64,000 nucleotides of DNA from Diacronema lutheri (Eukaryota; Haptophyta; Pavlovophyceae; Pavlovales; Pavlovaceae): NCBI GenBank assembly GCA_019448385.1, contig JAGTXO010000013.1, positions 310,001 to 374,000 on the forward strand. Reading direction: 5' to 3'. The notes beneath the pieces were generated by a model that saw only the letters and a list, made by a program, of their open reading frames with translations, was not told the DNA's origin and ran no database searches. The position numbers and the translations under genes were made by a program. How positions within the stretch are numbered: the first letter of the stretch is position 1; every line of letters begins with the position of its first letter. Below, one piece after another: positions 4,769-63,245 of this stretch.

Positions 4769-5963
4769 ATGATGCTCTCGATGGAGGGGCGGCGGGCCTT
4801 CTCGGTGCCCGTGCAGCTCGATGAGTACCACCTCGCCTCCAAGCTTAGCGTGCTCCACGCCGTCCTCGCACGCGGGCTCGTCGCGCCGCGCTCTGCGGCG
4901 CCGAACGAGCATCGCGCGTCCCGCACGGCCGACATCGAGTGGGAGCCGGACGGCAGAAGCGAGCCGGCCTCGCGCGGGACGCCGGCGCGTTCACTGCGCG
5001 TGCCGCTCACGCCGAGTAGCAACAGCTCCTACTCGCGCACGGCCTCGTGCCCCCACTTTGAGACGCAGCTCGTGCGCGCCGCGCAATGCTCGCCAGACCG
5101 CCGCGCGGACCGCCACGCGTGCCGCGCGCGCGCGCGCGCGCGCTGACAGCGCGCGACACGCGCGGCGTCCCTGCGCACGCGCGCGCGCACAGGCTGCATC
5201 GCTTGCGCTCATGAGCGTCGGCCCCGACCGGCGCCGGCACGACGGTGCGCCTCGCCCGGCGCCGACGCCGGCGCGCCGCGCCGCGTCCGAATGCTCGCCG
5301 CCGCCCGCGCCGTGTTCGCCCATCTTGGAAACGCGATCGTTGGGGCCAGCCACGGCGCCGCGCTACCGCGTGCTCGGCGCCAAGCGCGCCACCGAGGGCT
5401 CGCATCGCCCCCGCCTCGTCGCGTGCGCCGTCGCGGGCGCGGGCGGCGGGGCGGGCGGCGGCCACTTGGCGGAGGCGGCGGGCGCGGCGCGCGCGCTTAA
5501 GCAGTCGCACGGCGCGCCGTGCCGGCAGCGCTCGCACGATCAGCTCATGTGCCTACAGGCGGCGGCGCGGAGCAAGCGCCGGCAGCATGCCTCCACCGCC
5601 TCCGCCGCCTCCGCCGCCTCCGCAACCACCGCAACCACCGCAACCACCGCCTCCATCGTGCCATTGCCATGCAACGAATGCGTCCGCAGCCCGGCGCCGA
5701 TCGAAGGCCGCGACGACGCGGCTAGCGCGCACGACTGGCCAAGCGTGGCGCTCGGCTCGGAGCACAGCGCGCGCGCGCCCGACGACGCGCCGCTCAGCAG
5801 CCCGCTCATCGCGTGGACCGCACGCGGCACGTCCGGGCAGCTGGCCAAGTCCGGGCAGCTGGCCAATCCGTTGAGCTCGGATTCGCGCGCCGCGTCGGCT
5901 GGCGGCGCGAGCGCTCTCACGGCGCACGCGCGTGGCGCGCGCAGCGACGAGGCGTTTGGCGGG

Positions 5964-6001
<38 letters not shown>

Positions 6002-7507
6002 GCACATGGAGTGCGCGAGCGAGCCAGGCCGCGCGACAATCATTCGCTCGGAGCACACCGCCTCGTCCGCCTCGTCCGCGAGCCTGGCCGATTGCATTGG
6101 CGAGCGCGACAGTGGCGGCAGCGGCGAGGGCGGCGGCGGCGGCGGAGAGGGCGGCGACGGCTTCGGTGGGGTCAATGGTGGCTGGTTTGGCGACGCGATG
6201 CTCGTCGACTCCACCAACGAGCTGGAGGGCGCGCGCGGCGTGCCCGGCGGCTTGCACGACGCTGCCGCGCGGCACGCGACCGACGCTGGCGCGCGCGGCG
6301 CCGGCGCCCACGAGGCGACTGCGGCCGCAGCTTGGAAGCCATACGCTGACACGGTTGCCGAGCCGCACGCGACCGGCGGCGCGGCGGCGAGCGCCGACGC
6401 GGCCACGCTCGCGCTCGCGCGCGCGGCGCCGGCCGCCGGCGCGGGCGTCGCGCGCGTCTCGACGCTCTTTGACGAGACACGCGCCGCGATGGGCGCCGTT
6501 GCGGAGACGCTACGGCTCGCAGCGGAGGCGAGCGAGCGCGCGCGCCTACAGGCGGCGGCGGCGACGGCGGCGTCCACGCGCGCTGCCGGCTTGATGAGCG
6601 CGGCGGTGCCGACGGCGTTCTGCTGGCGCGGCGAGGCGAAGGACGTTTCAGTTGTCGGCTCGTTCAATGGGTGGGCCGAGCGGATACCGTTGTGCGCCGG
6701 TGTGAGTGCGGCCGACTGGTACGTGACGCTCGGCTTGCCCCCGGGCGACCACTCGTTCCGCTTCGTTGTCGACGGCGAGTGGCGCTGCTCGCGCGATGCG
6801 CACATGGGCGTTGATGCATCAGGTGCGATGCACAACTGCACGACCGTGCTGCGCCAGTGTGACGAGGACGACGGCGCGACCGACGGCGGAGCGCCGACGC
6901 GCGCCGGCGCGTGCACGGACGATGACGACGAGGGCTGGAGCCAGCTGTCGTGGCAGGGGCTGAGCGGGCGCGCGCCTCCCGAGCTGCCCCCCCATCTCAA
7001 GGTGCGCGCGCTGCAGCCGTGCGCGCCGCATCGCGCCGCATCGCGCCGCATCGCGCGGCCGCCGTCGCGCGGCCATGCGCGTCGTCGCGCGCACAGCTGT
7101 TCGCTGCCCGCTAGCTCCAGCGTGCGTGCGCCTGTGAGACGCGCGCGCGCGCACGCGGCGCGTGCGCACAACTCAACCCGCGTGGCGTCCTCCCGCGTGT
7201 ACATCGTCTCCCATGCGCGCAGCTCGCCGCTTTCTCGCCGCTGCTTGAGCTCAGCCGCGTCGCACCGCCGGTCGCACCGCCGGTCGAGCTCGGGCCGGCG
7301 ACGCCGCCGCCGCCGCGGCCGGCCGCCGGCCCGCCCGCGCTGCACACCCAGCTCTGCCATCTCTTTCGCACGCAGCCACCCGCCGGCGCGTGCGCACGGC
7401 CGCCGCCCGTCGAGCTGAGCGTCGGCGTGCGATACACGCCGCCATCGGGCGCTCTGAACACGAAGACGGTGACGCTCATCCTGCTCAAGCCGCCGCCCCG
7501 CTGGTAG
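4769..7507 (+). CDS. AMPK/SNF1/SnRK1 beta subunit with CBM48 domain, three exons
   Basis: Scaffold subunit that tethers the AMPK/SNF1 kinase to its gamma subunit and to glycogen or starch. Exons inferred as 4769-5071, 5193-7001 and 7223-7507 (798 residues, phase 0 throughout). The carbohydrate-binding CBM48 is at about residues 570-655 (SVVGSFNGWAERIPL, GDHSFRFVVDGEWR). The ASC domain is split by the last intron: PPELPPHLK on one side, HTQLCHLFR and TVTLILLKPPPRW at the extreme C-terminus. Usual family members are 270-300 residues; here about 570 residues of low-complexity Ala/Gly/Arg/His sequence precede the CBM, including a poly-Gly run coded at 5959-6000 and CCGCCT-type repeats near 5590. 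The first exon is assigned by frame continuity; the alternative start is the ATG at 5212. Confidence 0.85.
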
Positions 7508-8394: not shown

Positions 8395-9026
8395 CGCCGT
8401 TCAGGTCCGTCCTTGGAAACTCGTGCGTCCGGGGACAGCTGCCAGTGTGCGTGCCTGACAGTCGCGGGTGGCGAGACGCGCGCGGCGCGCCTCCGGAGTG
8501 CGGACGCGGCTCGACGCGCGAGGCGCGAGTTCACTTGGCGCATGCGGCGCGGGGTCGTGCGCTTGCACAGCGAGCGTCTCGGCCGCGCGTTGCCGCCCGC
8601 GCGCGAGCACGGCCGCCAATGCCATTGCCCGAGCCCGGATGCCGTGCCGCGCGAGTACCCGTCGCCGGCTGGCCGACGCGACTGCTCCAGGCGGCCGCCG
8701 CGGGAGGGTCGCAGTCAGCCGGGCACGCTCGTTTTGCACGATTCACACACCGCCGGGGGCTCCGCGCGCGGATCGCCTCGGCGAGGCTCATCCAATTGGG
8801 CTCATCCCGATCACCCAAGCCCGCCCAGGCGTTTCGACTTTCGCCTTTGGAGAGTCGCATCCGCCTCAATTCGAATTGCAGTCCGGTGAGATGCGTGGCG
8901 GATTCGAGATGAGGGCAAATCCACCACTGGCCTCCGCGGCACCCCCCTTTGTGCCGGGGCCCCACTCCACAGCCTCACCACGGGCGCCCCCATCGAGCAA
9001 GCGCGCGCGCAGGCGCCGGCGCGGCG
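8395..9026. other. Intergenic region between divergent HPP and MFS genes
   Basis: About 630 bp, long for this window. The frames across it read as arginine/alanine-rich shadow translation with no recognisable domain. A less GC-rich patch (about 8800-8900, with repeated TCGGCGAGGCTCATCC-like and AATTCGAATTGC sequence) may hold promoter elements. No RNA gene is visible. Confidence 0.4.
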
Positions 9027-10640
9027 ATGTCCGTGTCATGTCGGCACCAGCAGCTCTCCGCCGCCGAGCTGAAGCGCGACGCCACCTCGCGCTGGGTCCT
9101 CTCGCTCACGCACGCGCCGCACTCGGACCGCCGGCTGCGTGCGCCGGGCGCCGCCTCGCCACGCTCAACCGCGGCCGCGGCGGCGGGCGCGGCGGCGGCG
9201 CACGCGGCACGCGCACCGCAGCCGCGGCCAAAGGCGCGCGTGCCACCGCGCTCGCCGCAGGTCTTCCTCGACCACTCTGCGGTGCGCGCCGGCTCGGCGG
9301 AGCCGGGGCGCGGCGCGCCGCACGGCCGCTTGCGCGTCTTCTGCCTGATTTACGCGGCGTACGTCGGGCTTTTGATCGCGCGCAAGAACTACGGCTTCTG
9401 GATCCCGCACGCGATGCGCGTGCTCGACCGCTCAAAATCGGACGTCGCTGTGATCGGCTCGTCGTTTGAGATGGCGAGCGGCGCGGGCGCGCTGCTCAAC
9501 GGCTTTTTGATCGACGCCGTCGATCCGTCGCTGGCACTCGCGTGCGCGCTCGCGGCCTCGGCCACCGTCAACCTTGCGCTCAGCCGCGCCCGCTCGCTGC
9601 CGCTCATGGCCGCGCTGTGGGGGCTCAACGGCGCTGTGCAGTCGCTCGGCTGGCCGTGCGTGAGCAAGGTGTTCTTGCGCGCGTTTCCCGATCCAAAGGG
9701 GCGCGGGATGTGGTACTCGGTGCTGTCGACGTCGCAGAACGTGGGCGCCGCGCTCGTCCCGCTTCTCGTCTCGGCGGCCGTCGCCGCATCGGGCGATGCG
9801 CGCCTCGCCTTCTTCTTGCCAGCCGCGCTCGCGCTCTGCATGTCGCTCGTGCTGCTGCGCGTGCTGTGGCGGCGCTCGGAGCCGCGCAGCACGACGCCGG
9901 CGGCGGCGGCAGCGGCGGCGATGCGCGCGCGCGACGCCGCGCTCGCCGCCGCGCTCGCCGTCAAGGGCAAGCGCGCGAGCGCTTCGGGCGCGCGCGAGGC
10001 GTTCGTGCGCATGCTCTGTGCCGATGTGCTCCTCAACTGGCGGCTGTGGCTGATGGCGGTGAGCTATTTTTGTATCGGCGTGATCCGCTCGTCGCTCACC
10101 GACTGGACGCCGCTCTACCTTGCCGAGCACAAGGGGCTCTCCGCCGCCGCCGCCTCATCGTGCCTCTTTGCGTTTGAGCTCGGTGGCTTCCTCGGCTCGA
10201 TCGCCGCCGGCCGCGCGTCCGACCACCTGTGCCACGGCCGGCGCGGGCCGGTGATGGCGACGTGCACGCTCGCGCTGTGCCCCGCGCTCCTCCTCCTCGA
10301 CCGCACCGCCGACGCGCGCGCCCTGCCGCTCGTCTACTTTGCGCTCGGCGCGTGCGCCTTCCCCGTGCACGTGCTGCTCGGCCTGGCGTCGCGCGAGGTC
10401 GTCTCGCCCACCGCGTCGAGCACGGCGGGCGGGCTCGTCAAGTTCGTCGCGCAGATGGGCGCGTCATCCGCGGGCTACCCGCTCGGCGTGCTCCAGCAGC
10501 GGAGAGGCTGGAGCGCCGTCTTCTGCCTCCTCAGCTCCGTCGCGCTCGCCGGTGGCGTCGCGACGCTGCCGCTCTGGCGGACCGTCGCGCGCGTCGACGA
10601 GCGCAAGATCGAGAGCCGGCATAAGGTGAAGGGCGGATGA
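9027..10640 (+). CDS. MFS transporter, SLC37/GlpT-type organophosphate:phosphate antiporter
   Basis: Single-exon protein of 537 residues with about 12 hydrophobic helices in two halves. The first helix carries the charged motif typical of organophosphate:phosphate antiporters (YVGLLIARKNYGFWIP). Others are WGLNGAVQSLGWPCVSKVF, followed by GRGMWYSVLSTSQNVGAAL, and in the second half SYFCIGVIRSSLTDWTPLYL and FELGGFLGSIAAGRASD. The family exchanges sugar phosphates or glycerol-3-phosphate for inorganic phosphate in the ER, plastid or plasma membrane. About 85 residues of Ala/Arg-rich sequence precede the first helix and could be a targeting extension. The ATG at 9027 is the first in frame. Substrate and membrane cannot be told from sequence. 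Confidence 0.85.
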   Translation: MSVSCRHQQLSAAELKRDATSRWVLSLTHAPHSDRRLRAPGAASPRSTAAAAAGAAAAHAARAPQPRPKARVPPRSPQVFLDHSAVRAGSAEPGRGAPHGRLRVFCLIYAAYVGLLIARKNYGFWIPHAMRVLDRSKSDVAVIGSSFEMASGAGALLNGFLIDAVDPSLALACALAASATVNLALSRARSLPLMAALWGLNGAVQSLGWPCVSKVFLRAFPDPKGRGMWYSVLSTSQNVGAALVPLLVSAAVAASGDARLAFFLPAALALCMSLVLLRVLWRRSEPRSTTPAAAAAAAMRARDAALAAALAVKGKRASASGAREAFVRMLCADVLLNWRLWLMAVSYFCIGVIRSSLTDWTPLYLAEHKGLSAAAASSCLFAFELGGFLGSIAAGRASDHLCHGRRGPVMATCTLALCPALLLLDRTADARALPLVYFALGACAFPVHVLLGLASREVVSPTASSTAGGLVKFVAQMGASSAGYPLGVLQQRRGWSAVFCLLSSVALAGGVATLPLWRTVARVDERKIESRHKVKGG

Positions 10641-11075
10641 GCTGGCGCGCGCGCGCCGCGCGCGCCGCGCGCATGGCATGGCATGGTGATCGAGCGCGCC
10701 TGGCGCTCGAGGCATCGAACGCGCCGCGCGCGCAGAGGCGTGCGGGCGCGGCGCGCAATCCGCGCGCGCCAGCGCGCGACGGCGACGTCGCGCGTCGCCT
10801 TCGCGGATGCTGCTCCGGTGAGCGGTGAGGGCAGCACGCAGCCGGTCCGGCTTGGCACTCCGGGTGAAGTCCGGGCAGTTTTAAGACTAACTGAAATTAT
10901 ACGCAAAATTTTGGCAGGTTCGCAACTAGGAACGGGGCCCCAGATTCCACCAAATCCAAACATACCAACCTGAGGGGGCGAAGGTCCTCACCCATCTCGT
11001 CGACGAGGGGCTGCTCGGCCTCGTCTCGTGAACGCGGGCTGCTCGGCCTCACGCCGCGTGGACACGCGTGCGGCC
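10641..11075. other. Intergenic region with a low-GC pocket
   Basis: Between two plus-strand genes. The first 220 bp are CG/GC-rich. Positions about 10875-10970 fall sharply in GC (runs such as ACTGAAATTATACGC and AAATTTTGGC) and probably hold the promoter of the downstream gene. The last part contains two near-identical CTGCTCGGCCTC stretches. No coding or RNA feature is seen. Confidence 0.4.
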
Positions 11076-14000
11076 ATGCGTCGCGAGCAGCCGCGTGGCC
11101 TCTTTGTCGTCGCCGATCCTGGGCCCGACCCGGACGACGTCAAGGCGCTGCTGGCGAGCGTGGTCGTGCACAAGCAGGGCCAGCTGCAGCTCTGCGGCGT
11201 CATCGCGAATGGCGGTGGCCAGCCGGTGCGGCGCGCGCGGCTCGCACGGTGCATCCTCGACCGATTGTGCGAGCCGCTCATTCCGGTGGGCGTGGGCTCG
11301 GCGGGCGCGGTTTCGGTCGAGCAGCCGCACGAGATGATGCTCGCCGGCTACTCGGAGGTGGACGACGCGCGCCTGCTCGACGGGCGCACGCTCTTCCGAA
11401 GCGTGTTGCGCGCCGCTCGCCCAAAGTCGCTCGTGATTGTGTTCATCTCGTCGCTGCGTGACTTTGCGGACGTTGTCGCCGAAGAGCCCGAGCTGGTGTT
11501 GCGCGCGACGGCCGAGGTTGTGATCCAGGGCGGCCTTACGCCCGACCCGACCGCGCCGTACGGCTACCGGCCCGACGCGTCGCAGAACAATGTCTTCGAC
11601 ATGGACGCGGCGCGCGCGGTCTACGACTTTTGCTTCGGCGCACGGCTCAAGATGGCGGTGGTGTCGCGCGAGGCGGTGCCGCTGCTGCCGATGCAGCTGG
11701 CCAAGAGTTTTGCAACGCGCACGCAATCTCCGCTGCTCGTCTACCTGGCCAACGCGCAGCTCCTCGGCCTTGTTGGCCTGTGGGTCAAGGTGTGCGCGGG
11801 CAGTCTGCCGGCGCGCTGCTCCAAGCAGTGGTACTTTGCGACCTTCTGCGGCGTCGACGCCGCCGAGTTCGAGGCGCGGCGCCTCGGCGCGCTCGACGAG
11901 GCCGCCGACATCGGCGCACACCTCAAGGGCTACGTCAAGCCGTACGACGTGTGCGCACTCATGATGGCGCTCCCGTTTGCGGCCGCGCGCCCCGTCGGCT
12001 CGGCCGTGGTGGTGCGTGGCGTGCAGCATTCGCTGTTGCTTTCCGCCGCGCACCAGTTCGATGTGTGGAACGTGCACAACCTGCTGCGCGACGTGTACCA
12101 CGTCATCGCGTCGCTCGACCCGGCCGCGGGCGACGGCGCGTTGCCGCGCCGCCACGCCGGCGCGGCGTCGTACGGCGTGCCGCCGCCGTGCAGCGTGCCG
12201 CTGCCGTACTTTGTGCAGTCGCGCGACGCCGCGCGGCCACTCTCGACGAGCTCTGCGAGCGCGAGCGCGAGCGCGAGCAGCACCAGCGCGCGCAGGCGCG
12301 CGGGCCCCGCGCCCAACCCGTACCTCGCGCGCCTGACCGCGCAGCTCGCCGTAAGCGCCGGCCAATCGCCCCACGGCCGCGCGGGCCGAATGAGCCGTGC
12401 GCAGGCAAGCATCCTTGGCCGCCTCAGCTCGCGCGTGAGCGCGGCGCCATCGGCGTCGGAGGGCGCGCGAGACACCGCGTGCACGCACGGCAGCAGCGTG
12501 CGCCCGCGCATGACGCTCCGCGCCGCGCCGCAGGCCGCGGTCGCGCCGTGGCGCGACTCGGCGGCGGCGGGTGCGAGCGCCGGCAGCTCGGACGGCTGGT
12601 CGCGCGCGAGTCGCTTCGCGAGCGCGCGGCCGGGCAATTCGACGCGCACGAGCGGCCGACCGACGGCGCACGCGTCGCACAGCCGCGCCGACAACGGGCA
12701 GCTGAGCGCGCCGCGTTCGGTCACATCGAGCGTGCGCGAGGTGCGTCGGCTCGCGGCGGTACGTGCGCTCTCGGCCGAGCATGTGCTCTCGCCCGAGCGG
12801 ATCGTCTCGGTGCTCGGGCTCGCGCTCAACCTTGCGCAGGGCCGGCAACGCCGGCTTGAGGTGATCACGCTCACGATCGGTGGGAGCGTGTCTGGGCTCG
12901 GCGTGGTCACGCTGCTCACAGTCAGCCTGCGCTCGGGCCTCAACGAGGCGACCGTGCGCGACATGGTCGACGCATGGTGGCTCGGCCGGCTGGCGATCGC
13001 GGCGTGCGCGATGGTGCTTGGCGGCACAACCGCGCTCATCTCGCTCCAGCCGCTCCCGTCGCAGCGCAGGCGGATCCACGCGCTCGTCCTCATCTTCCAG
13101 TGCTACTTGATCGCCGCGGTCGCCTTCGCTCTCGCCGAACTCACGGCCGAGGTGCGCTGGCTGATTGCGCGCGGCGCACGTGGCGAATACGACGCGGTCG
13201 CGATCGGTGTCGCAATCGGGCACGGCTACACGCTGCTCGTCGGCGGCGTGCTCGTCGCCATGACGGCGGCCGAGCACTGGCGGCACCGGCGCGAGCTGCC
13301 GCATGTGCTCTGGCTCGCACACCGGCTGGTGTGGATCTGCTTGTCCGGGCAGGCGCTCGTCGAGCTCGCGCTCGTGGTCTGCCTCGCGCGCGTCGGCTTC
13401 TTCGCGCAGCCCGACGGCGCGGGTCTCGCCGTGTTCGCCGTGCTCCCGCCGCTCGTCTACGCGGCGGGCACGGCCATCGCGTGCGCGCCGTCATTCCGCG
13501 AGCGCATGCGCGCCGCGCTGATGGTGCGGCTCGGCGCGCTCGGCGCGCTCGAGGCGCTCGCGCCGCTCGCGGGGTACGGTTCGGACCGGATCGAGCGCGG
13601 CGTTGCGGCCATTTGCGCCGAGGCGCTCCGCGACTTCCGGCCGGTGCTGCTCGACGAGCACGCGCTCGGAGCGCTGAAGGCCGCATGGGAGCGTGCGCCG
13701 TGCGCTGTGCACGAGGCGCGTTCCTCGGCAAGCAGCCGCGCGGGCGGCTCGCCGTCGAAGCGCGTGGCCGGCGGCGTCGGCGTGCGCGCCCTCTCGCCGC
13801 TCGCCGCGTTCGACGCGTCGCTGCTCGCGTGGAGCGAGACGCAGCGCGCCGACGCGTACGTCGTGCACGCGTGGGCGGACGAGCCAGCGGGCAAGCTGCG
13901 CGCGCTGCGCGAGTATGCGCGCGCGTTTGCGCAGAAGCACGGAAGGCCGCCGGCAATCTGGGTCGACGCGCTCTGCGCCGTGCCGCACGCTGCGCCGGCA

Positions 14001-14765
14001 CGCGCCGCGCACGCGCTCAGCGCCGCGTCGCGCGCGCCCGCAATGCCGTGGCGTCCAACGGCCATTGCACGCCTCTCGCTCAAGCCCGCGCCCATCGCAC
14101 CGTTCGAGCTGGGCGTGCAGGGGCCGCACTCACCGGCCGTGTCGCCGCCGCGCACCATCGCAGCCGCATGCGGCGCGCAGAGCGCGCCGCGCGCGGCGGC
14201 CGTCGAGCCGCCGCGCGCGCGCAGCCCGACGGAGGGCGACGGCGCGGCCGGCGCGGCCAGCGCGCGCACGAGCTCGCCGCCGCGCGCGTTTGGCACCGAC
14301 GAGCATGCGTCGCGGCAGCTGGAGCACCTCGTGCTGCGCATCGCGCGCTCGTCGCAGCTCCTCGTCCTCGCCGGTCCGTCCCTCTTCGAGCGGCTGTGGT
14401 GCGTCGTCGAGTGCTACGTGTGGGTGACGACTGGTGGGAGCACCGAGCGGATCGCGCTGCTGCCGACGACCGATGAGCCGGCGGACGACGCGGAGCTGCT
14501 CGCCGCCGCCGACACGTTCCACATCCTCTACTGCGACGCCGCCATCGTTGCGCACAAATGGCGGCTCTCGCTCGTCGCGCAGACGGCGACCGTTGCGCGC
14601 ATGAATTCGGTGATGCGCGCGCTGCTCAACCCGCTGCACGCGCAACTCGACCTGGTGGCGCGCGAACGGCGGGCCAGCGAAGATGCGGCAGGCGGCGCGG
14701 CGCGCGGCTCGCGCGTTGAGCCGCTGCTGCACGACGAACAGGGCGAGAGCGACAGGGCCGACTGA
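11076..14765 (+). CDS. Nucleoside-hydrolase-like / multi-TM / TIR-like fusion protein
   Basis: Uninterrupted frame of 1229 residues with three parts. (1) Residues about 8-390 resemble inosine-uridine nucleoside hydrolases: the metal-site motif appears as ADPGPDPDDVKAL, followed by LCGVIANGGGQ, VIQGGLTPDP and DASQNNVFDMDAARAVYDF. The order matches the family, but the first aspartate of the usual DxDPGxDD is not conserved. (2) A Ser/Ala/Arg-rich linker, then about six hydrophobic helices at residues 600-830. (3) A TIR-like tail: DAYVVHAWADEPAGKLRAL (box 1), PPAIWVDALCAV (box 2), an insert of about 90 residues, then SQLLVLAGPSLFERLWCVVE (box 3), keeping the glutamate after WC. The membrane and TIR parts align with the gene at 41114-43807. 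Start is the ATG at 11076; an in-frame GTG lies upstream. Function is inferred only. Confidence 0.75.
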   Translation: MRREQPRGLFVVADPGPDPDDVKALLASVVVHKQGQLQLCGVIANGGGQPVRRARLARCILDRLCEPLIPVGVGSAGAVSVEQPHEMMLAGYSEVDDARLLDGRTLFRSVLRAARPKSLVIVFISSLRDFADVVAEEPELVLRATAEVVIQGGLTPDPTAPYGYRPDASQNNVFDMDAARAVYDFCFGARLKMAVVSREAVPLLPMQLAKSFATRTQSPLLVYLANAQLLGLVGLWVKVCAGSLPARCSKQWYFATFCGVDAAEFEARRLGALDEAADIGAHLKGYVKPYDVCALMMALPFAAARPVGSAVVVRGVQHSLLLSAAHQFDVWNVHNLLRDVYHVIASLDPAAGDGALPRRHAGAASYGVPPPCSVPLPYFVQSRDAARPLSTSSASASASASSTSARRRAGPAPNPYLARLTAQLAVSAGQSPHGRAGRMSRAQASILGRLSSRVSAAPSASEGARDTACTHGSSVRPRMTLRAAPQAAVAPWRDSAAAGASAGSSDGWSRASRFASARPGNSTRTSGRPTAHASHSRADNGQLSAPRSVTSSVREVRRLAAVRALSAEHVLSPERIVSVLGLALNLAQGRQRRLEVITLTIGGSVSGLGVVTLLTVSLRSGLNEATVRDMVDAWWLGRLAIAACAMVLGGTTALISLQPLPSQRRRIHALVLIFQCYLIAAVAFALAELTAEVRWLIARGARGEYDAVAIGVAIGHGYTLLVGGVLVAMTAAEHWRHRRELPHVLWLAHRLVWICLSGQALVELALVVCLARVGFFAQPDGAGLAVFAVLPPLVYAAGTAIACAPSFRERMRAALMVRLGALGALEALAPLAGYGSDRIERGVAAICAEALRDFRPVLLDEHALGALKAAWERAPCAVHEARSSASSRAGGSPSKRVAGGVGVRALSPLAAFDASLLAWSETQRADAYVVHAWADEPAGKLRALREYARAFAQKHGRPPAIWVDALCAVPHAAPARAAHALSAASRAPAMPWRPTAIARLSLKPAPIAPFELGVQGPHSPAVSPPRTIAAACGAQSAPRAAAVEPPRARSPTEGDGAAGAASARTSSPPRAFGTDEHASRQLEHLVLRIARSSQLLVLAGPSLFERLWCVVECYVWVTTGGSTERIALLPTTDEPADDAELLAAADTFHILYCDAAIVAHKWRLSLVAQTATVARMNSVMRALLNPLHAQLDLVARERRASEDAAGGAARGSRVEPLLHDEQGESDRAD

Positions 14766-14944
14766 GCCGGCGCAGGCGCGCGGCGCCACCGAGCCTGCCC
14801 GCTAGCAGGCGTGTGGGTGGCCGGGCGTCGGCGGCGCACGGCCGAACGATCGAGAGCGCCATCGGTCATTGCGGCTGGGGCCTGAGCATGTCCGTCAGTC
14901 TGAGGGCCGCAGACTGGCAGACTCGACGTCTGGGCCTCGCGGCC

Positions 14945-16852
14945 ATGGCGCCGCGCAAGAAGCCCAACATCGAATTCCGCATCGCGATGGAGCAGCTCAG
15001 GTCCGGGCTCAAGCCCGCGCTCGGCGTCGCGCGCTATCTCCAGCAGAAGGCTGCAAAGAGCGCGCGCGCCAAAGGGCAGCGCGCGCCCGGACGAGCCGGT
15101 GGCCAGCCCGCCGTGCAGAACGTCGAGCGCGACGCAGGAGGCCCTCCTAGGAGCGGCGAGCGCGGCGGCAGCGTCGGTGGCGCGGACGCGGCGGCACGGC
15201 TGGCCAAGCTTGTGGCCGAGAAGACGGCGCGCCGCCGTTACCACCTGCAGAAGCAGCTGCGGCAGGCCGTGCGCAAGGCGCGCGACTTCGCGCTGCGAAA
15301 GCTCGGCAGGAAGCTCAAGGAGGCGAGCGCGGCCGCCGACGGCGGCGAGGCGGGCACGCACGCGCAGGCGCGGGCGGAGGCGCGCCTCGGCGCCCTTAAA
15401 GCACTTTCCGTCGATTGGCTGACGCACCGCACCCTCGAGCAGTCTGGCCTCGAAGGCAAGGAGCCCGACGGAAGCGCGGACGACGGCGCGCGGCGCGTCG
15501 GCTCGGGTGCGACGGGCGGGGGCGCGGGCGGCGAACCGGCGCCACCAACGCTCACGACGGAGCAGCAGGCGGAGGTAGGACAGTCGAGCGCGCTCGTCAC
15601 GAGAGCTGCCGCGGTCGTCTCCGCCGTGGCCGCACTTCGCCAAGCGCTGGGCAACGCCGACGGCCCGGCGGCCGCGTGCGCTGCGCCGGAGGCCGCTGCG
15701 AGCGCGGGGCGGCCACGGCACGAGCAGCCGGTTGGGCGCGAGTTGTCCGCCCCGCGTGCGCGCGCTGACGGAGGTGGCGGCGCCGCGCTTCAGCGGCGTG
15801 CTTTGGCGCCGCTACAATCGCAGAAACCGCCAGGGCCCATGGCCAGCGCCGGCGCGGCGCGCAACGGCGGCACGGGCGCGCATTCCGATCCCGATTCCGA
15901 CGCCGGTCCCGATTCCGACGCCGAGTCCGGCGTCGAGTCCGACGACGGTGACGAAGGCGGCGGCTCGGACGACAGCCTGGACGGGCCCGAGGCGCACGAC
16001 GACAGCATCTTCGTCTCCTCGCTTGCCGCTGCCCGTCCGCCTGCCAAGCGCGCGCCCGACCGTGCGCCAAGCGCAGCTGAGCAGCTGCGCGAGCTGGCGC
16101 GCATCGCCGCCGAGCGCGAGCAGCAGCGCAAGGCGTTGCGAGGCGCCGCGGGCGAGCCTCCAAGCGACGACGACGACGACGACGACGAGTTTGCGCGCGG
16201 CTGGTCCGACGACGGCAGCGCTGGGAGCGTGAGCAGTGACGGTGACGGTGACGGTGACGGTGACGGTGACGGCGGCAGGCGCATGGCAGGGGCGAAGCGC
16301 GCGCCGCCCTCGCGCAGCGGCACAGTCAAAGCCGGCGGCGCGGCGCTGCTGCCCAAGCCGGCCAAGAATCGCATGGGGCAGCGCGCGAGACAGGCGCTGG
16401 CGGAGAAAATGCACGGTCAAGGCGCCCACCACCTCGCACGCGGCCAGCCACCCGTCCAACCTCGCGTCGCGCACGCGCGCGGTCGCGGCGCGGCGGCGGC
16501 GGGCCGCGGGCGTGCAGACAGCCGGGGCCGCGGACGCGGTGACCCGGGCGCGGCCATGGGCGCCGGCGGCTCGGGCCGTGGCTGGGCGGCGCGTGGGGGA
16601 GCGAGCGCCGGCCGCTGCGGGCGCGGCGAGCACGGGCGAGGGAGCTGGGCGAGCGCGCCCAGCGCGTGTCGCGCGTCCGAAGCGCACGCCGGGACGGCGG
16701 CCGTGCGGCCGCACGCGCACGCGCCCGGACGGTTGCCGCATGGCGACGCGGCCGGCCTGCACCCGTCATGGCAGGCGCGGCACATGGCACCCAACGCTGG
16801 GGCGATCCAGCAATTCGCGGGCAAGAAGCGCACATTTGATGATGACGATTGA
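14945..16852 (+). CDS. BUD22/SRFBP1-like ribosome biogenesis protein
   Basis: Single-exon, 635-residue protein, basic at both ends and acidic in the middle. The N-terminus (KPNIEFRIAMEQLRSGLKPA) and an arginine/lysine-rich helix (RRRYHLQKQLRQAVRKARDF) are followed by Asp/Ser-rich low complexity, including a (GTGACG)n-coded Asp-Gly run at 16232-16270. Near the C-terminus are KNRMGQRARQALAEK and the closing block LHPSWQAR then FAGKKRTFDDDD, the signature end of the Bud22 family. Yeast Bud22 acts in small-subunit rRNA processing and animal SRFBP1 binds SRF; nucleolar location is expected. I chose ATG 14945 because homology starts just after it; ATG 14888 is in frame upstream. Confidence 0.75.
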   Translation: MAPRKKPNIEFRIAMEQLRSGLKPALGVARYLQQKAAKSARAKGQRAPGRAGGQPAVQNVERDAGGPPRSGERGGSVGGADAAARLAKLVAEKTARRRYHLQKQLRQAVRKARDFALRKLGRKLKEASAAADGGEAGTHAQARAEARLGALKALSVDWLTHRTLEQSGLEGKEPDGSADDGARRVGSGATGGGAGGEPAPPTLTTEQQAEVGQSSALVTRAAAVVSAVAALRQALGNADGPAAACAAPEAAASAGRPRHEQPVGRELSAPRARADGGGGAALQRRALAPLQSQKPPGPMASAGAARNGGTGAHSDPDSDAGPDSDAESGVESDDGDEGGGSDDSLDGPEAHDDSIFVSSLAAARPPAKRAPDRAPSAAEQLRELARIAAEREQQRKALRGAAGEPPSDDDDDDDEFARGWSDDGSAGSVSSDGDGDGDGDGDGGRRMAGAKRAPPSRSGTVKAGGAALLPKPAKNRMGQRARQALAEKMHGQGAHHLARGQPPVQPRVAHARGRGAAAAGRGRADSRGRGRGDPGAAMGAGGSGRGWAARGGASAGRCGRGEHGRGSWASAPSACRASEAHAGTAAVRPHAHAPGRLPHGDAAGLHPSWQARHMAPNAGAIQQFAGKKRTFDDDD

Positions 16853-38633: not shown

Positions 38634-41072
38634 ATGGCGCGCGCGAGCAGGTTAGGCGCGTGCGGCACATCATCGCCGCGGGCGCGAGGCCGCAGCTTGG
38701 CGAGCGGCGGCCTCGTGTGCGTGGCGATGATCTGCGCATCGTCGTGCGGCCTTCTCTTCCTCCGCCGTCCGTTTGACGACGAGCCGGTCGGCGGCGGCGG
38801 CGGCGCGGGCCCGCCGGCGTTTGCGGCGCGCGGCGCGGCGCCGCGGCGCACGACATGCGCGGACTTTCGCCTCCGCTTTGACGTGGACTATCTGGGCGGG
38901 GATATGCACTCGATCGCGCTGCCGGTCGGAAGCATCTCCGAGTGCTGCGCGCGCTGCGCGAACACGCCCTCGTGCGTCATCTTCACGTACGTGGGCGGGG
39001 AGGGCGGCTGCTGGCTCAAGGCGACGCTTGGCGATGCGCGCGAGGTGCCGCACGCGCGCCGCGTCGCGTCCGGCGTGCACGCTGGCACGGTGGGCGCGGT
39101 GTCAAGTGACGCCACGGCGGGTGCGGCGGCCGGCGTCGCCGAGCTGCGCGGTGCGCTGCCGCAGCGCAACGCGCAGGGCGACATGTGGGCGCCGGGAGCG
39201 TGGCAGCCGCAGGGCGGCGATGCGCCCTTCTCAGCCGTTGCCGGCTCGGCCCTCTCCGCTTTTAATGAGATTGGCTGCATGGATTGCGCCGCTCTTGAGC
39301 TCCTCGAGCGCGTGCGCTCGTCCTGGCAGCGCGAACGCACGCGCCTCGGCGCAGCGGTGCGCACGCCGCCGCCGGACGGCGGCGCGCTCGGCGACGGCAC
39401 GGCGGAGCTCGGCAGCGGCGGCGGCGGCGGCGGCGGAGGTGGCGGCGGCGGTGGCGGAGGCTCGTTCCCGGCGCCCGACACGGCTGTCGACGCGTTCGGC
39501 GTGGCCGCGGCGGCCGACGCGTCGAGCGCCACCGCCGCGCGTGCGGCAGCGTCCGGCCGTGCGTGGGTGCGGCTGACGCTCCTCGGCGAGCGTGGAGGCT
39601 TCATCGTCTCGTGGCAGGCGCGCAGCCCGTGCGCGCGGCCGTACGAGCAAATCGAGCCGCTCGCTGTGCTGTGGGGCCGCGTGTACGCCGGCGTGGAGCC
39701 GAGCGCGTCGCAGCTCGCGCGTGCGGCCGTGTGGCGAAGCGCGCCGCCAGGCACGGCAGCGGTGGACGGCGGCGATGCAGCGGCTGCGGGCGGCGGCGGC
39801 CAGCCGGCGTTGTGCGTGCACCACGCGCTGCTGCCCGTGCCGGCCATTGAGGGCGCGCGTTACGGCTACCGGCTGCCGCTCGAGGGCGCGCGCGTCGACG
39901 ACGCCGATGCGCAGTGGTCGCCGCTCGTCACCTTTGCCGCGCAGCCGGCCGCGTCGGCGGAGGCGACGACAATTGTCGCGCTGAGGCCGGGAGCGGCAGG
40001 CGCCGAGTTGGAGGCCGTCGGCGCCGAGGTGAGCGCGTACGGCGTCGCGCTGCTGCTGCAGCCCGCGGACGCGGCCGGCGCGCGCAGCTGGGCCGACGAG
40101 GCGGCCGTGCTCTCGGAGCTCTCGGCGCGCGTGCCGTTCGCGGCGGCGTTCGCGCCCCCCGCGCGCGCCGCGAGCGGGCACGACGGCGGCGGCGCGTCCG
40201 CCGGCGCGCGCGCGGACGCGTGCGTCGATGCGTCGCGCGCGCAGCTGCCCCTGCCCGGCATCGTGCCGCGCAGGCGCGCGTCGGGCGCGCGCGCTGGCGC
40301 GACGGGCATGGCGCCGAGCGCGGCAGAGGGTGGCGCGCTCGGCGGCGCGTGCGTGCGCGCGCTCGGCTCGCGCGCGTGGTGGTCGGTGCGCGTGGGCAAC
40401 GTGCGCGTGCTTGCGCTCTCCGCGTGGCACGCTGCGCGCGCCACGAACGCGCGCGAGCTGCAGAGCTCGCGTCAGGCGCGCTGGCTCACGTGGGTGCTCG
40501 CTGAGCATGGCGCGCTGCCGGTAGCCTCACGGCCATGGCTTCTCCTCCTCGCCGCCGATCGGTTGGGCGAAGGCGGCGCGGCGGGCGCGCGCGGCGGGCG
40601 CGCGGTGTCAGGCGCACTCCGCCGCCTCGTCGCGCCTCACCTGCGCGCATTCGACCTCGCCCTCACCGCGTGTGTCGGCGGTGCGTACGAGCGAGCGCCG
40701 CCGGGGTCGGGCGGCGCGGCGCGCGAGCGCGAGCTGGTCCCCGAGGTGTGCCTTGGCAGCGCTTCCGTAGGCGTCGGCAGCACGAGCGGCGCGGATGGAG
40801 CATATCTCCGCCTCACGGCGAACCGCAGCCAGCTCGTCGCCGAGTGGGTGGGTGCAGCGACGGGCGACGTGCTCGACGCGCTTGCGCTCGGCAGGCGCAC
40901 GCAGCCGCATCCGGCCGAGCAGCGCGCACGACGAGCCGCCGAGGAGCGCGGCGGCGGCGCATGGCAGGCTCGCGCCGGCGGCGTCTCGCCGACGGCCGAG
41001 CTGGCCATCGGCGTGAGCGCGCCAATGACGCACGGACAAACCGAGGCGGCGCAGCGTGCCGGCCTTATGTGA
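38634..41072 (+). CDS. Membrane-anchored PAN-domain protein with degenerate purple acid phosphatase fold
   Basis: Single-exon, 812-residue protein. A signal-anchor helix (GLVCVAMICASSCGLLFL, about residues 26-43) is followed by a PAN/Apple-like module (ISECCARCANTPSCVIFTYV, ending GGCWLKA). A poly-Gly linker is coded at 39415-39462. The rest follows the order of purple acid phosphatases: an Fn3-like domain (VRLTLLGERGGFIVSWQA, ARYGYRLPLEGARVDD, QWSPLVTFAAQPAA), then a calcineurin-like shell with WWSVRVGNVRVLALSAW, RQARWLTWVLAEHG, RPWLLLLAADRLG and ALTACVGGAYERAPP. The metal ligands are missing: the usual GDxG and GNH segments are not found, and the GHxHxYER block reads ACVGGAYER. Probably a non-catalytic, luminal or extracellular binding protein. 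Confidence 0.65.
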   Translation: MARASRLGACGTSSPRARGRSLASGGLVCVAMICASSCGLLFLRRPFDDEPVGGGGGAGPPAFAARGAAPRRTTCADFRLRFDVDYLGGDMHSIALPVGSISECCARCANTPSCVIFTYVGGEGGCWLKATLGDAREVPHARRVASGVHAGTVGAVSSDATAGAAAGVAELRGALPQRNAQGDMWAPGAWQPQGGDAPFSAVAGSALSAFNEIGCMDCAALELLERVRSSWQRERTRLGAAVRTPPPDGGALGDGTAELGSGGGGGGGGGGGGGGGSFPAPDTAVDAFGVAAAADASSATAARAAASGRAWVRLTLLGERGGFIVSWQARSPCARPYEQIEPLAVLWGRVYAGVEPSASQLARAAVWRSAPPGTAAVDGGDAAAAGGGGQPALCVHHALLPVPAIEGARYGYRLPLEGARVDDADAQWSPLVTFAAQPAASAEATTIVALRPGAAGAELEAVGAEVSAYGVALLLQPADAAGARSWADEAAVLSELSARVPFAAAFAPPARAASGHDGGGASAGARADACVDASRAQLPLPGIVPRRRASGARAGATGMAPSAAEGGALGGACVRALGSRAWWSVRVGNVRVLALSAWHAARATNARELQSSRQARWLTWVLAEHGALPVASRPWLLLLAADRLGEGGAAGARGGRAVSGALRRLVAPHLRAFDLALTACVGGAYERAPPGSGGAARERELVPEVCLGSASVGVGSTSGADGAYLRLTANRSQLVAEWVGAATGDVLDALALGRRTQPHPAEQRARRAAEERGGGAWQARAGGVSPTAELAIGVSAPMTHGQTEAAQRAGLM

Positions 41073-41113: not shown

Positions 41114-43807
41114 CTACGTTGCAACGCGCGAGGCGCGCTCCGCGGCATCGTGCTCATCCGTGCCATCGCCGTGGCCATCGACGTCACCGACCCGGCTCCG
41201 CTTTGCCGGCGCAGACCGCCCACCGCCCGGCCGCGCCACGGCGATGGGCGCCGCCGCGTCGCTCACATGCACAAGCGCGATCGGTGTGATCTTGGTCGTC
41301 GAGTGCGATTTGGCCAAGCGCGACCCGTTGCACGGGCTGCGCATCGGCGACTGCAGATGGCGCGAAAAGAGCGAGGGCGACGTGCGGTGGCCCGCCATGC
41401 CGCCCGACGGCGACGGGCTGGACAGGGAGCGCGTGAGGAGGAAGCTGGGGCGCGAGGCGCTGCTCGCGCGCTGCATGTCGCTCCCGCGCCCCTCGCTCGC
41501 CTCCTTGAGCTTGTGCACGACGAGCGAGCGGATCCACTTTGAAAAATCGTCGCCACCCTCGCCGCTCCCTTCAATCACCGCGAGCAGCCGCTCATGGTCC
41601 GACGCGAGCGCCGCGCGAGCGCCGCGCACGTCGAAGCGGGAGGCGGCGACGATGGCCGCAGTGCACGAGGTGCGCAGCCCTCCTTCGCCGCGCTCCGTGA
41701 CGTCCACCTCCGTGTCCGCCGCAACTTCCGTCACGCGCGGCGTGCCCTTGGTCGTCGAGGCCGAGCGAGCGGCCGAGCGCGAAGTGCTGCGGTCGCTGTG
41801 CGGCGCGATGGGCGCGTCGCTTCGGCGCGCGGTCATGCGCATGGCGCGCTCGCGCCGGGACGAGGGCGACGGCAGCGACGTTGGCGCGCCCCACGGCGTG
41901 TTGAGCGTGATCAGCGTGATCTTGCTCTCGGGCGGCGTGGGCAGGTGCGCCTGATAAAAAGTGAAGAGCTCGACGACGCACCACAACCTCGACAAGTAGG
42001 TAGGGCCAAGCAGCACGAGCAGCGTGTTGCACCCGGCGAGGTAGACGGGCAGCGACGGTAGCTGCGCCGCAATGTTCGTTTGGTCGATGCAGCAACGGTC
42101 GAACCTACGCGCCGTGAAGAGCCGAGGCGCGCGTCAGCGCACACGCGCGTTCGCGCAGCGCAGGCTATGCCCGCGACTGCGCGGCGCGACGCGGCGTGGC
42201 GCGCCGCGCACCAGATGAGGGGCTCGCGGCCGTGCAGCGCGTAAAATCTGGCGCGCCACGCCTGCAGCGCCTCCCACTTTGCATGCGGCGGATCGTGCCT
42301 GCGCGCCGCGAGGCGTCGCGGGCCGTGCTGCCGATTAGAGGGTCGTGCGCGCACCGTTCGCGTTGCTGCGCGCGTTGCTGCGCGCGCGCGCGTGCGCGCA
42401 CCACGAGTGCGAGACGAAGGCATCCACCTGCCCGAGCTTTGCTAGCCGTGCGACGTTGTCGGCCGGCGGCGCGGTGTGGGCGCCCTCGCCGCGCGCGCCA
42501 TGCGCGTGCTCCGTACCGACGCCGTGCTCCGGGCTCGCGCACGCGGCCGCGATGCGCACGGGGTCGGGCGGCAGCTCGGCGGCGAGCGCGGCGGCCGCGG
42601 CCGCGAGCTCGCCGCCGTCGGCTAAGGCGACGCTGTCCTTTGGGCGGCGTGAGCGCCGGAGCAGCGCCACCGAGCTGCGCAGCAGCCGACGCGACGCGCT
42701 GAGCGAGCCCGCTTCGGTGACCGGCGCCGGGCGAAGGTGGTCGAGCGTGAGCTCGGCGAGCGAGACCGCGCGGAAGGACGTCGCGGCGTGCTGCAGCACG
42801 TGCGATGCCTTCACGCCGTCGAGCATCTCGGCGATGCCCGCCGCGGCCGTCACGCCGTGCGCGCGCATCGCGAGGAAGCCGTGCACGCGCGAGCGCAGCC
42901 GGTCGTCGCGCAGCCCCGCGCACGAGAGCGCCGCGCACAGGATCGCGTGGAACGCGTACACGCCGATCAACTCCGAGTCGAAAGGGACGCCCAGCAGGTC
43001 GTGCTTGACATGCTCGCGCAACGACTCGACGATGACGTAGCTTGCGTACTGCACGGAGAAGACGCCGTACATGAGGCAGACGAGCCGAAAGACGACGACG
43101 GTGAGCCGATGTGCGCTCAGCAGCTGGCAGTGACTTGCGAGCAGCACACCGCACGGCACGAGGCACGCGAGCAGCGTCGCGACGGCGAGATAGAAAGCCC
43201 GCACAATCACATGGACCAACTGCAGCGCAAGCAGCCTGCGATATATCGGCGTGGTCGACCAACTCCCGCTCCTCAGCAGCTCAACTTCGGCAAGCAACGG
43301 CCCGACCTGCAGCCCGATGATGACGCCGCCCGCGACGACCTCGCATGCGAGCAGCAAGCGTACAAAGAGCTCGTCGCCCGGCATGGCGGCGATGGAGAAG
43401 ACAAAGCCGCCTGTGAAGATTGCCGAGAAGGCCCACCTGTAGTCGAACGGCAGCGCGTCGGAGTGGCCAATCCCGAGGACAAATATGACGCAGCCGAGCG
43501 CGACGGACGCGACGCCGAACGCGAGAAGCGGCAGCTGCACCTGCCGCCGGCGCAATCGGCGCATTTCAAGCATTGACGTTATCCGCTCCTTGATCGCCAT
43601 GATTGAGCCGTCGTTCTCGGAGTTGATCGAGTGACCCGGTTTTGCGCGCGTTGCGCCATCGGCGCGCACCGACCAGCACGGCGGACGGCGCATCGTCGCG
43701 ACATGGCGCAGCTGCGCGCTCGTCGGCTGCGCGTACAACTTGTCGGCGGCCGCCGAGGTGTCCAAAGAGGTTTGTTTTTCATCGCGCTCGCTCGCGCGTA
43801 CCTCCAT
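41114..43807 (-). CDS. Multi-TM protein with C-terminal TIR-like domain, three exons
   Basis: Exons 42402-43807, 42212-42298 and 41114-42104 (827 residues; both introns begin GTGCGC). About six hydrophobic helices lie at residues 70-290 (LLAFGVASVALGCVIFVLGI, AFSAIFTGGFVFSIAAM, LVHVIVRAFYLAVATLLACL, VFRLVCLMYGVFSVQYASYV). A cytosolic helical segment follows (RVHGFLAMRAHGVTAAAGIA). The TIR-like domain is rebuilt across the introns: DAFVSHSW + HDPPHAKWEALQAW (box 1), REPLIW + FDRCCIDQTNI (box 2), LPVYLAGCNTLLVLLGPTYL and SRLWCVVELFTFY (box 3). The tail has DHERLLAVIEGSGEGGDDFS. The glutamate of WCVVEL, at the position of the catalytic residue in NAD-cleaving TIRs, is kept. Same architecture as the tail of the 11076-14765 protein. 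Role unknown; signalling or defence is inference. Confidence 0.8.
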
Positions 43808-61533: not shown

Positions 61534-63245
61534 ATGCCGCGCGTGTCGCTCGCCCTGCCGTTCGCGTTGCTCGGCGCGTGCGGCGCCTTCGACGGCGCGT
61601 TGCCGCGCGCGGGCCGCTCAGCCGCGTCGCGCGTTGCGCGCGCACCTGCACGGATGGCGACTATTGAGCGGCCCGCTATGGTTGAGCTGCCCAACCTCGA
61701 TGGCGCGCTGCCCGACTGCCCACGCACCGAGTGGAACAGCGACGGGATGGACATTGCGGCGGAGCAGCAGAAGCTCAAGGCGATGGGGCTGCCGGCCTGC
61801 CCGCTTGAGATCGTCGCCACGCCGCAGGAGAACGCGCAGGGCGCCGCCTACTTCACCGAGAACGCCGAGCGGCTGCGCGCGCTCCTTCGCGAGCACGGGA
61901 CGCTGTGGCTCAAGGGCTTTGACCTCACAAAAGACGAGGCTGGCTTCCACCGCTTCTACGACTCGATCGGGCTCTCGCCGTGCCTCGACCCGATCCACAC
62001 CTCCGGCCTCCGCGCCTTCGCCTCCGCCAGGGACGCCGTATACCAGGAGGTGAACAAGCAGTCGCTCGCCGGCCACTATATTGGCCTGCACAACGAGGCG
62101 ACCACCAAGAAGACCGCGCGCTTCGGCGCCTTCGTCTGCTTCAAGCCGGCGTCGGTGCGTGGCGGCGAATTCTTCATCGCCGATGGCGCTGCTATCTTCC
62201 GCGACATGCGCACCGACGTGCTCAAGCGGCTCTACGAGCGCAAGGTGCGGCGCAGCGCGCGCGCGCGACGAGCAGCCGCGCGCACGAGCGGGCGGGCGGC
62301 AGAGCGTGTGCGCCGCGCGCCCACCGCGCGCGCCGTCACGCACGCGCGTGCTTGCCCCGTTGCCGCTGCGTGGGCCCAGGTGCGCATCTCCGTGTCCAAT
62401 CTCGACCTGGACGTGCTGGGCGCGCTGGGCCCGCTGAAAGAGGGCGCGATGGATGCGGTCAAGGGCCTCGTGCAGCAGGTCGTCGCGCCCAAGTTTGACA
62501 TGGATCTCGGTGCGCGCGCGCCTGCGCGCCCTGCCGGTACTTTGCGCGTTGCGCTCCCGCTGCGGCCGGCCACGGCCGTGCCGCTTCGCACACTGGGCGT
62601 CGCACACTGGGCGCCGCACACTGGGCGCCGCACACTGGGCGCCGCACACTAGGCGCCGCACACTGGGCGCCGCACACTGGGCGCCGCACACTGGGCGCCG
62701 CACACTGGGCGCTGCACACTGGGCGCTGCTGCCTCCCGTGACCTCGGCGCGCGCGTTGCGCCCTCCCCGCCCCGGCCGGTGCGCGTGCAGAGATGCTGTA
62801 TGGTGCGGATGGCAAGGCGATGCGTCTGCAGGCCATCGAGGAGGTGCAGTCCCCCGTCAACCGCCACCCGGAGACGGGCATCCCCGTCTGGTTCTGCAAC
62901 GTGCACAACCACGCGCGCTACCTTCGCGACCGTCGGCCGTGCACCGTGCCCGAGGTGGGCATGACCGACGTCTACCTGGGCGATCTGTCGCCCGTTGCCG
63001 CCGAGGACCTCGACCACATCAACGAGGTCTCGCACCGCAACATCGCCACGTGCGCGATGGCGCCAGGCGACGTGCTGCTCGTTGATAATTACCGCGTGCT
63101 GCACGGGCGCGACATCTTCGAGGGCGAGCGGTACCACGCGGTTTCGTGGTTTGACGGCTGGAAGTCGGATGTGTCGTCGGTCGTGGGAGACGGTGGCAAG
63201 CCGGGCAACGCGCTGAACAAGCTGATCAACTCGCTCATCAAGTGA
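61534..63245 (+). CDS. TauD/TfdA-family Fe(II)/2-oxoglutarate dioxygenase, three exons
   Basis: Exons 61534-62244, 62380-62509 and 62791-63245 (431 residues, phases agree). A signal-like leader (ALPFALLGACGAFDG) precedes an Arg/Ala-rich stretch, suggesting a plastid or secretory route. The dioxygenase core shows GTLWLKGFDLTKDEAGFHRF, the iron-binding pair in IGLHNEATTKKTARFGAFVC (His-Asn-Glu in place of His-x-Asp), GGEFFIADGAAIFRDM, and the distal histidine and 2-oxoglutarate region VLLVDNYRVLHGRDIFEGE followed by RYHAVSWFDGWK. These are the TauD-family features; the substrate (sulfonate, trimethyllysine-like or other) is not evident. The second intron carries a 14-bp minisatellite. Exon 2 (VRISVSNLDLDVLGALGPLK) is poorly conserved but phase-consistent. 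Confidence 0.85.
62586..62731 (+). repeat. 14-bp minisatellite inside a TauD-gene intron
   Basis: About ten copies of GCACACTGGGCGCC, with occasional GTCGC and CTAGG variants, fill half of the intron 62510-62790. Confidence 0.9.

Follow-up and report, generated by a model that had tools for sequence, protein, structure and literature searches.

The 64,000-nucleotide window analysed here, positions 310,001 to 374,000 of contig JAGTXO010000013.1 of the single-celled marine haptophyte alga Diacronema lutheri, carries on its forward strand a gene whose 1229-residue product joins a head resembling the effectors HopQ1 and XopQ to a membrane part and a TIR-like tail. The open frame extends from 10974 to 14762, with an ATG at 11076, a stop at 14763-14765 and no internal stop. 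It had been described in a first-pass annotation, a model's reading of the DNA letters; the uninterrupted frame is borne out and the motifs named in that annotation lie within it. The guanine-cytosine (GC) content at codon position 3 is 0.83-0.93 in every one of the 13 blocks of 100 codons and is higher than at positions 1 and 2 in 12 of them, the exception being the final block of 29 codons (0.86 at position 1, 0.83 at position 3). Upstream (10500-11075) codon-position GC is flat at 0.68-0.71. Two paralogues on contig C15 share the N-terminal MRREQPRGL with the window copy and hold head and tail in one frame. The ratio of non-synonymous to synonymous substitution rates (dN/dS) against these two genes is 0.19 for the head, 0.24 and 0.45-0.47 for the two TIR parts, 0.44-0.52 for the membrane part, 0.64-0.65 for an insert within the TIR-like fold and 0.75-0.78 for the linker behind the head.

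Long chance frames are numerous in GC-rich DNA, and the sole protein-database model returned for the window gene (P0002, 933 residues) starts at Met297 and lacks most of the head, as would be expected of two adjacent genes read as one. Such an artefact is nevertheless extremely improbable and was rejected: the same order recurs across numerous loci, is shared by other species and is seen in transcriptome-derived proteins, and codon-position signal and dN/dS constraint run all along the frame. Together with the constraint in the C15 paralogues, codon-position GC and the genome-wide head-tail order confirm the single fused frame as real and more than chance. The models of paralogues P0003-P0005 likewise include the head only in part, and the fusion may have been overlooked because these database models omit part or most of it.

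The genome contains about 75 head loci, this gene among them, and the same fusion is present in other Pavlovales. The search covered 43,492,796 bases in 103 contigs (published genome: 43,502,671 bp, 103 contigs, 73% GC; PMC8379373) and gave 75 head and 65 tail loci; these are clusters of 127 and 110 matches, with the best candidates scored, and may include assembly duplicates (C69/C72 and mirrored C34 copies). A same-strand tail lies at most 6.5 kb downstream of 53 of the 75 heads, none having an unused tail upstream or a tail on the opposite strand. Among the 22 head loci where this query returned no tail, seven were read (C87, C17, C71, C22, C29 twice and C33) and all seven have one by profile. 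Leaving the window aside, the 21 top-ranking head matches, which are not a random sample, form 20 regions, all with head and tail matches; in ten of these a single unbroken frame spans a complete head and a tail, and the frame changes or stops in the others are presumably introns in most cases. Both domains were found in 40 of the 60 proteins gathered, a count that includes the window's own P0001 and P0002, partial heads or tails and the reversed-order P0044. The two-domain proteins include P0006, P0007, P0010 and P0038 from Pavlovales sp. CCMP2436. Two separate genes, one of the two outcomes that would have spoken against the first-pass annotation, were not seen: three transcriptome-derived relatives (P0008, P0029 and P0030) carry both ends on one chain. 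One scan of viral contigs gave 40 pattern matches, none confirmed, which is not proof that viral relatives are absent.

Some loci and proteins of the family have an arrangement of their own. About 15 head loci lie on both strands of C34 (103625-595007), and some opposite-strand pairs are equal in score (for example 371207 and 409119), an indication of inverted duplicates or of copies arising in the assembly. A third C15 gene (L018; 67664-68518 and 64973-66643, minus strand), located between the two intact copies, has head and tail in separate frames and is possibly decayed or intron-bearing. In the metagenomic protein P0044 (947 residues) the tail match (271-417) precedes the head match (481-819), with no membrane segments between them at the threshold used; this is either a reversed order or two adjoining genes joined. 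P0025 (997 residues) combines a head-like region (178-498) whose metal motif is mostly lost with EF-hand domains, and has no TIR-like tail.

The head has a nucleoside-hydrolase fold, to which XopQ is nearer than any classical hydrolase. The resemblance to inosine-uridine nucleoside hydrolases proposed at first therefore holds for the fold and not for the identity, which is HopQ1/XopQ-like. Pfam PF01156 does match the head, at 27.7 bits, below its gathering cut-off of 34.2, and the classical DXDXXXDD motif is not matched (the head reads ADPGPDPDD); a classical nucleoside hydrolase was rejected on the Pfam score and the greater closeness of XopQ. The metal motif, rightly noted as non-canonical from the start, is DXXXDXDD, defined for the HopQ1-like proteins (HLPs) in a study that already contains algal members (PMC6019455). 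It is near-invariant in the family alignment (D14 in 59/60 rows, D18 in 58/62, D20 in 62/62, D21 in 60/62), which mixes proteins and overlapping loci, its rows not being independent. Each of N, N and D of the NNVFD motif is kept in 63/65 rows, and D and Y of KPYD in 76/80 and 75/79. With 81.2 bits against the 500-bit cut-off of NF041355, the NCBIfam equivalog model of the XopQ effector, the head is by its sequence a relative of XopQ and not the effector proper. Mean identity is 53.9% among heads and 18.6% among membrane parts (14 chosen members), and 35.9% among tails (13 members, the window tail being excluded for its insert); these values mark the head as the conserved core and the membrane part as the piece that varies.

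HopQ1/XopQ-type proteins are injected into plants by plant-pathogenic bacteria. According to a review, XopQ closes round bound ADP-ribose, and cyclic ADP-ribose added to the crystal mix was recovered as ADP-ribose (PMC8910321). The same review calls the reaction catalysed by XopQ elusive. Hydrolysis by XopQ of 2',3'-cAMP/cGMP, or of 2',3'-cAMP, is stated in three papers citing Yu et al. 2022 (PMC10944878, PMC11685791, PMC9963460), two of which tie it to plant immune receptor signals. Calcium bound at the same metal site stabilises HopQ1 (PMC11685791), and the aspartates of the head could be structural as well. Since TIR receptors in plants detect XopQ as a protein (PMC8910321), the head might serve to recognise, or act as bait for, a protein from a pathogen or a partner cell, with its ligand site kept only for folding and the tail self-assembling to signal. 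The large size of the family would suit such a role. Recognition modules usually diversify, yet no part is better conserved than the head, which retains NNVFD and KPYD as well as the aspartates; we regard this explanation as unlikely, though deserving some weight.

The tail has a TIR fold, as judged from the structural model and fold comparison, in which bacterial ThsB is among the matches. The first-pass annotation had placed a TIR-like tail on the same chain as the hydrolase-like head, and both folds are found. At the level of profiles, the window protein has no significant TIR match in Pfam, and the matches elsewhere are weak (TIR_2 at 0.034 in 1 of 7 tails, a FxsC TIR-like domain at 0.11 in 1 of 25 members). 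A protein search with the tail region returned the query and one close paralogue only, the tail profile matched none of the solved chains, and the best Foldseek match of the tail had an E-value of 0.058. In TIR domains the catalytic glutamate sits in the helix that follows the third strand; Glu1112 is the candidate by its position in the third main helix, and not by residue-by-residue alignment with known TIRs. This position holds E in 45 of 62 rows, Q in 9 and other residues in 8. Its loss in about a quarter of the rows may reflect active and inactive tails cooperating, or a non-enzymatic role of the tail.

The 17/62 rows without the glutamate would also suit a head that is a membrane-tethered salvage enzyme for nucleosides or nucleotides, the tail merely placing or clustering it, and the retained hydrolase fold and metal site would fit such an enzyme. 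This is improbable, since the motif is non-canonical, XopQ is closer than any classical hydrolase and about 75 loci are many for salvage. Within the TIR-like superfamily, the tail may alternatively stand nearer to the fungal HET branch and serve self/non-self recognition and cell death, not antiviral or antibacterial defence. HET domains, which trigger cell death, are TIR-like (PMC10890737, PMC12881547), and a second gene of the window, a relative lacking the head, has Pfam matches only to HET (0.18) and TIR_2 (0.17), which are weak and about equal. The HET match is not significant, however, and the window protein has none in Pfam. No solved HET or SEFIR structure appears in the fold lists, which does not rule either out. 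We consider the HET assignment distinctly doubtful.

Between head and tail, about six membrane helices had been proposed, and hydropathy and the structural model agree on six. The stretch ahead of them is probably a disordered linker, the per-residue model confidence (predicted local distance difference test, pLDDT) staying below 50 over residues 353-547. Six membrane segments were counted in 15 of 24 chosen members, five in 7, four in 1 and seven in 1. Net loop charge favours a cytosolic N-terminal flank, loops 2 and 4 and C-terminal flank in 12 of the 15 six-segment members, and in the 14 members whose N-terminal stretches ahead of the head were inspected by eye, these are mostly short and either basic or polar, with no evident signal peptide. 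Because of the segment number, the loop charges and the N-termini, both ends are predicted to lie on the same side, most likely in the cytosol, and the initial placement of head and tail across a membrane was rejected on this prediction. A pore-loop channel was also rejected, by argument and not by test: in the window protein only 14 residues (769 to 784) separate the last two segments, a short spacing for such a loop.

Table 1. Coordinates of the fused gene, its parts and the headless relative within the window.
Feature	Position	Strand	Evidence
Whole reading frame, 1229 residues	11076..14765	+	codon-position GC; start conserved in paralogues
HopQ1/XopQ-like head, residues 3-350	11082..12125	+	
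Metal motif D14, D18, D20, D21 (DXXXDXDD)	11115..11138	+	alignment row counts
NNVFD motif, residues 171-175	11586..11600	+	alignment row counts
KPYD motif, residues 288-291	11937..11948	+	alignment row counts
Probable disordered linker (low confidence), residues 351-547	12126..12716	+	pLDDT <50; dN/dS 0.75-0.78
Six predicted membrane segments, residues 596-802	12861..13481	+	hydropathy; helices in model
TIR-like tail, first part, residues 921-970	13836..13985	+	model, fold comparison
Low-complexity insert inside TIR-like fold, residues 971-1072	13986..14291	+	pLDDT <50; dN/dS 0.64-0.65
TIR-like tail, second part, residues 1073-1190	14292..14645	+	model, fold comparison
Glu1112 in WCVVE, candidate TIR catalytic glutamate	14409..14411	+	position in third main helix
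Headless relative: membrane segments and TIR-like tail; inferred exons 43807-42402, 42298-42212, 42104-41114	41114..43807	-	tail profile match 5.7e-27

The domains, their order on a single chain, the retained metal site and the family expansion are supported by computation. The presence of head and tail on one chain suggests a common set of small signalling molecules for the two folds. HLP and TIR proteins are opposed in plant infection and here share one chain and one cell, which makes a shared ligand the simplest common ground. We favour, at somewhat less than an even chance, a membrane-anchored signalling protein whose head and tail handle the same class of nucleotide, the head acting on a tail-type signal in cis. 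In this view the two ends most likely face the cytosol and the membrane part would bring tails together; the tail would either produce a nucleotide signal, of ADP-ribose type or 2',3'-cyclic, or be switched by such a signal; and the head would bind or hydrolyse that nucleotide in cis, the protein thereby reading or limiting its own kind of signal. A tail from the HET branch would be compatible with this mechanism. A self-contained TIR writer/eraser, in which the tail makes the nucleotide signal and the head removes or reads it, is a more specific and rather unlikely form. Were that form true, the HLPs injected by bacteria would rely on a fold that also exists in eukaryotes, hard-wired there to regulate TIR signals naturally, and the dozens of such units in pavlovophyte algae would make up a repertoire for immunity or self-recognition. 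We infer the substrate, the direction of control, the activity of the tail and the biological role, be it immunity, cell death or self/non-self recognition, and this includes the sensor or effector role put forward in the first-pass annotation. Should dozens of algal proteins indeed couple the HLP fold covalently to a TIR-like domain, the natural ligand of that fold would probably be a TIR-type nucleotide. Haptophytes, which are important marine phytoplankton, would then also have a concrete candidate receptor family.

The architecture expands on known domains, with no earlier description found. In contrast to HopQ1, XopQ, RipB and their fungal, moss and algal relatives, the HLP here makes up the N-terminal region of a membrane protein whose tail is TIR-like. 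Plant TIRs carry a WCxxE motif, and the window tail shares both this motif and the TIR fold with plant receptors of the TIR nucleotide-binding leucine-rich repeat type. The window protein differs from them by its membrane helices, C-terminal TIR and absence of any NB-ARC or LRR match in Pfam (the best NB-ARC match in the family being 0.13, in 2 of 25 members). In bacterial Thoeris, the TIR protein ThsB makes an ADP-ribose-type signal and the SLOG-bearing ThsA reads it. The idea of a TIR maker with a reader partner is similar, although both would here share one chain, with an HLP instead of SLOG. A known antiphage-defence family was rejected, PADLOC giving nothing for the window protein and one weak match (0.033) in 1 of 25 members. 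Fungal HET proteins also form large families with a TIR-like signalling domain (PMC10890737, PMC12881547), but with other partner domains. The main text of the HLP study (PMC6019455) contains none of the words 'transmembrane', 'architecture' and 'fused', and that of the D. lutheri genome paper (PMC8379373) none of 'hydrolase', 'TIR' and 'immun'. Titles and abstract openings in the literature covered, outside which most subscription journals lie, contain no description of an HLP-TIR fusion.

Other genes of the window, all on the plus strand, have Pfam matches to AMPK1_CBM (4821-7418), MFS_1 (8949-10640), BUD22 (14813-16852), PAN (38634-41072) and TauD (61534-62652); nothing in the Pfam content of these five ties them to the fused gene. 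The headless relative on the minus strand may show how such genes looked before they acquired the head. Genome-wide, 12 of the 65 tail loci lack a head upstream, and on C48 (342127-351821, plus strand) five consecutive tail-type loci occur with no head match.
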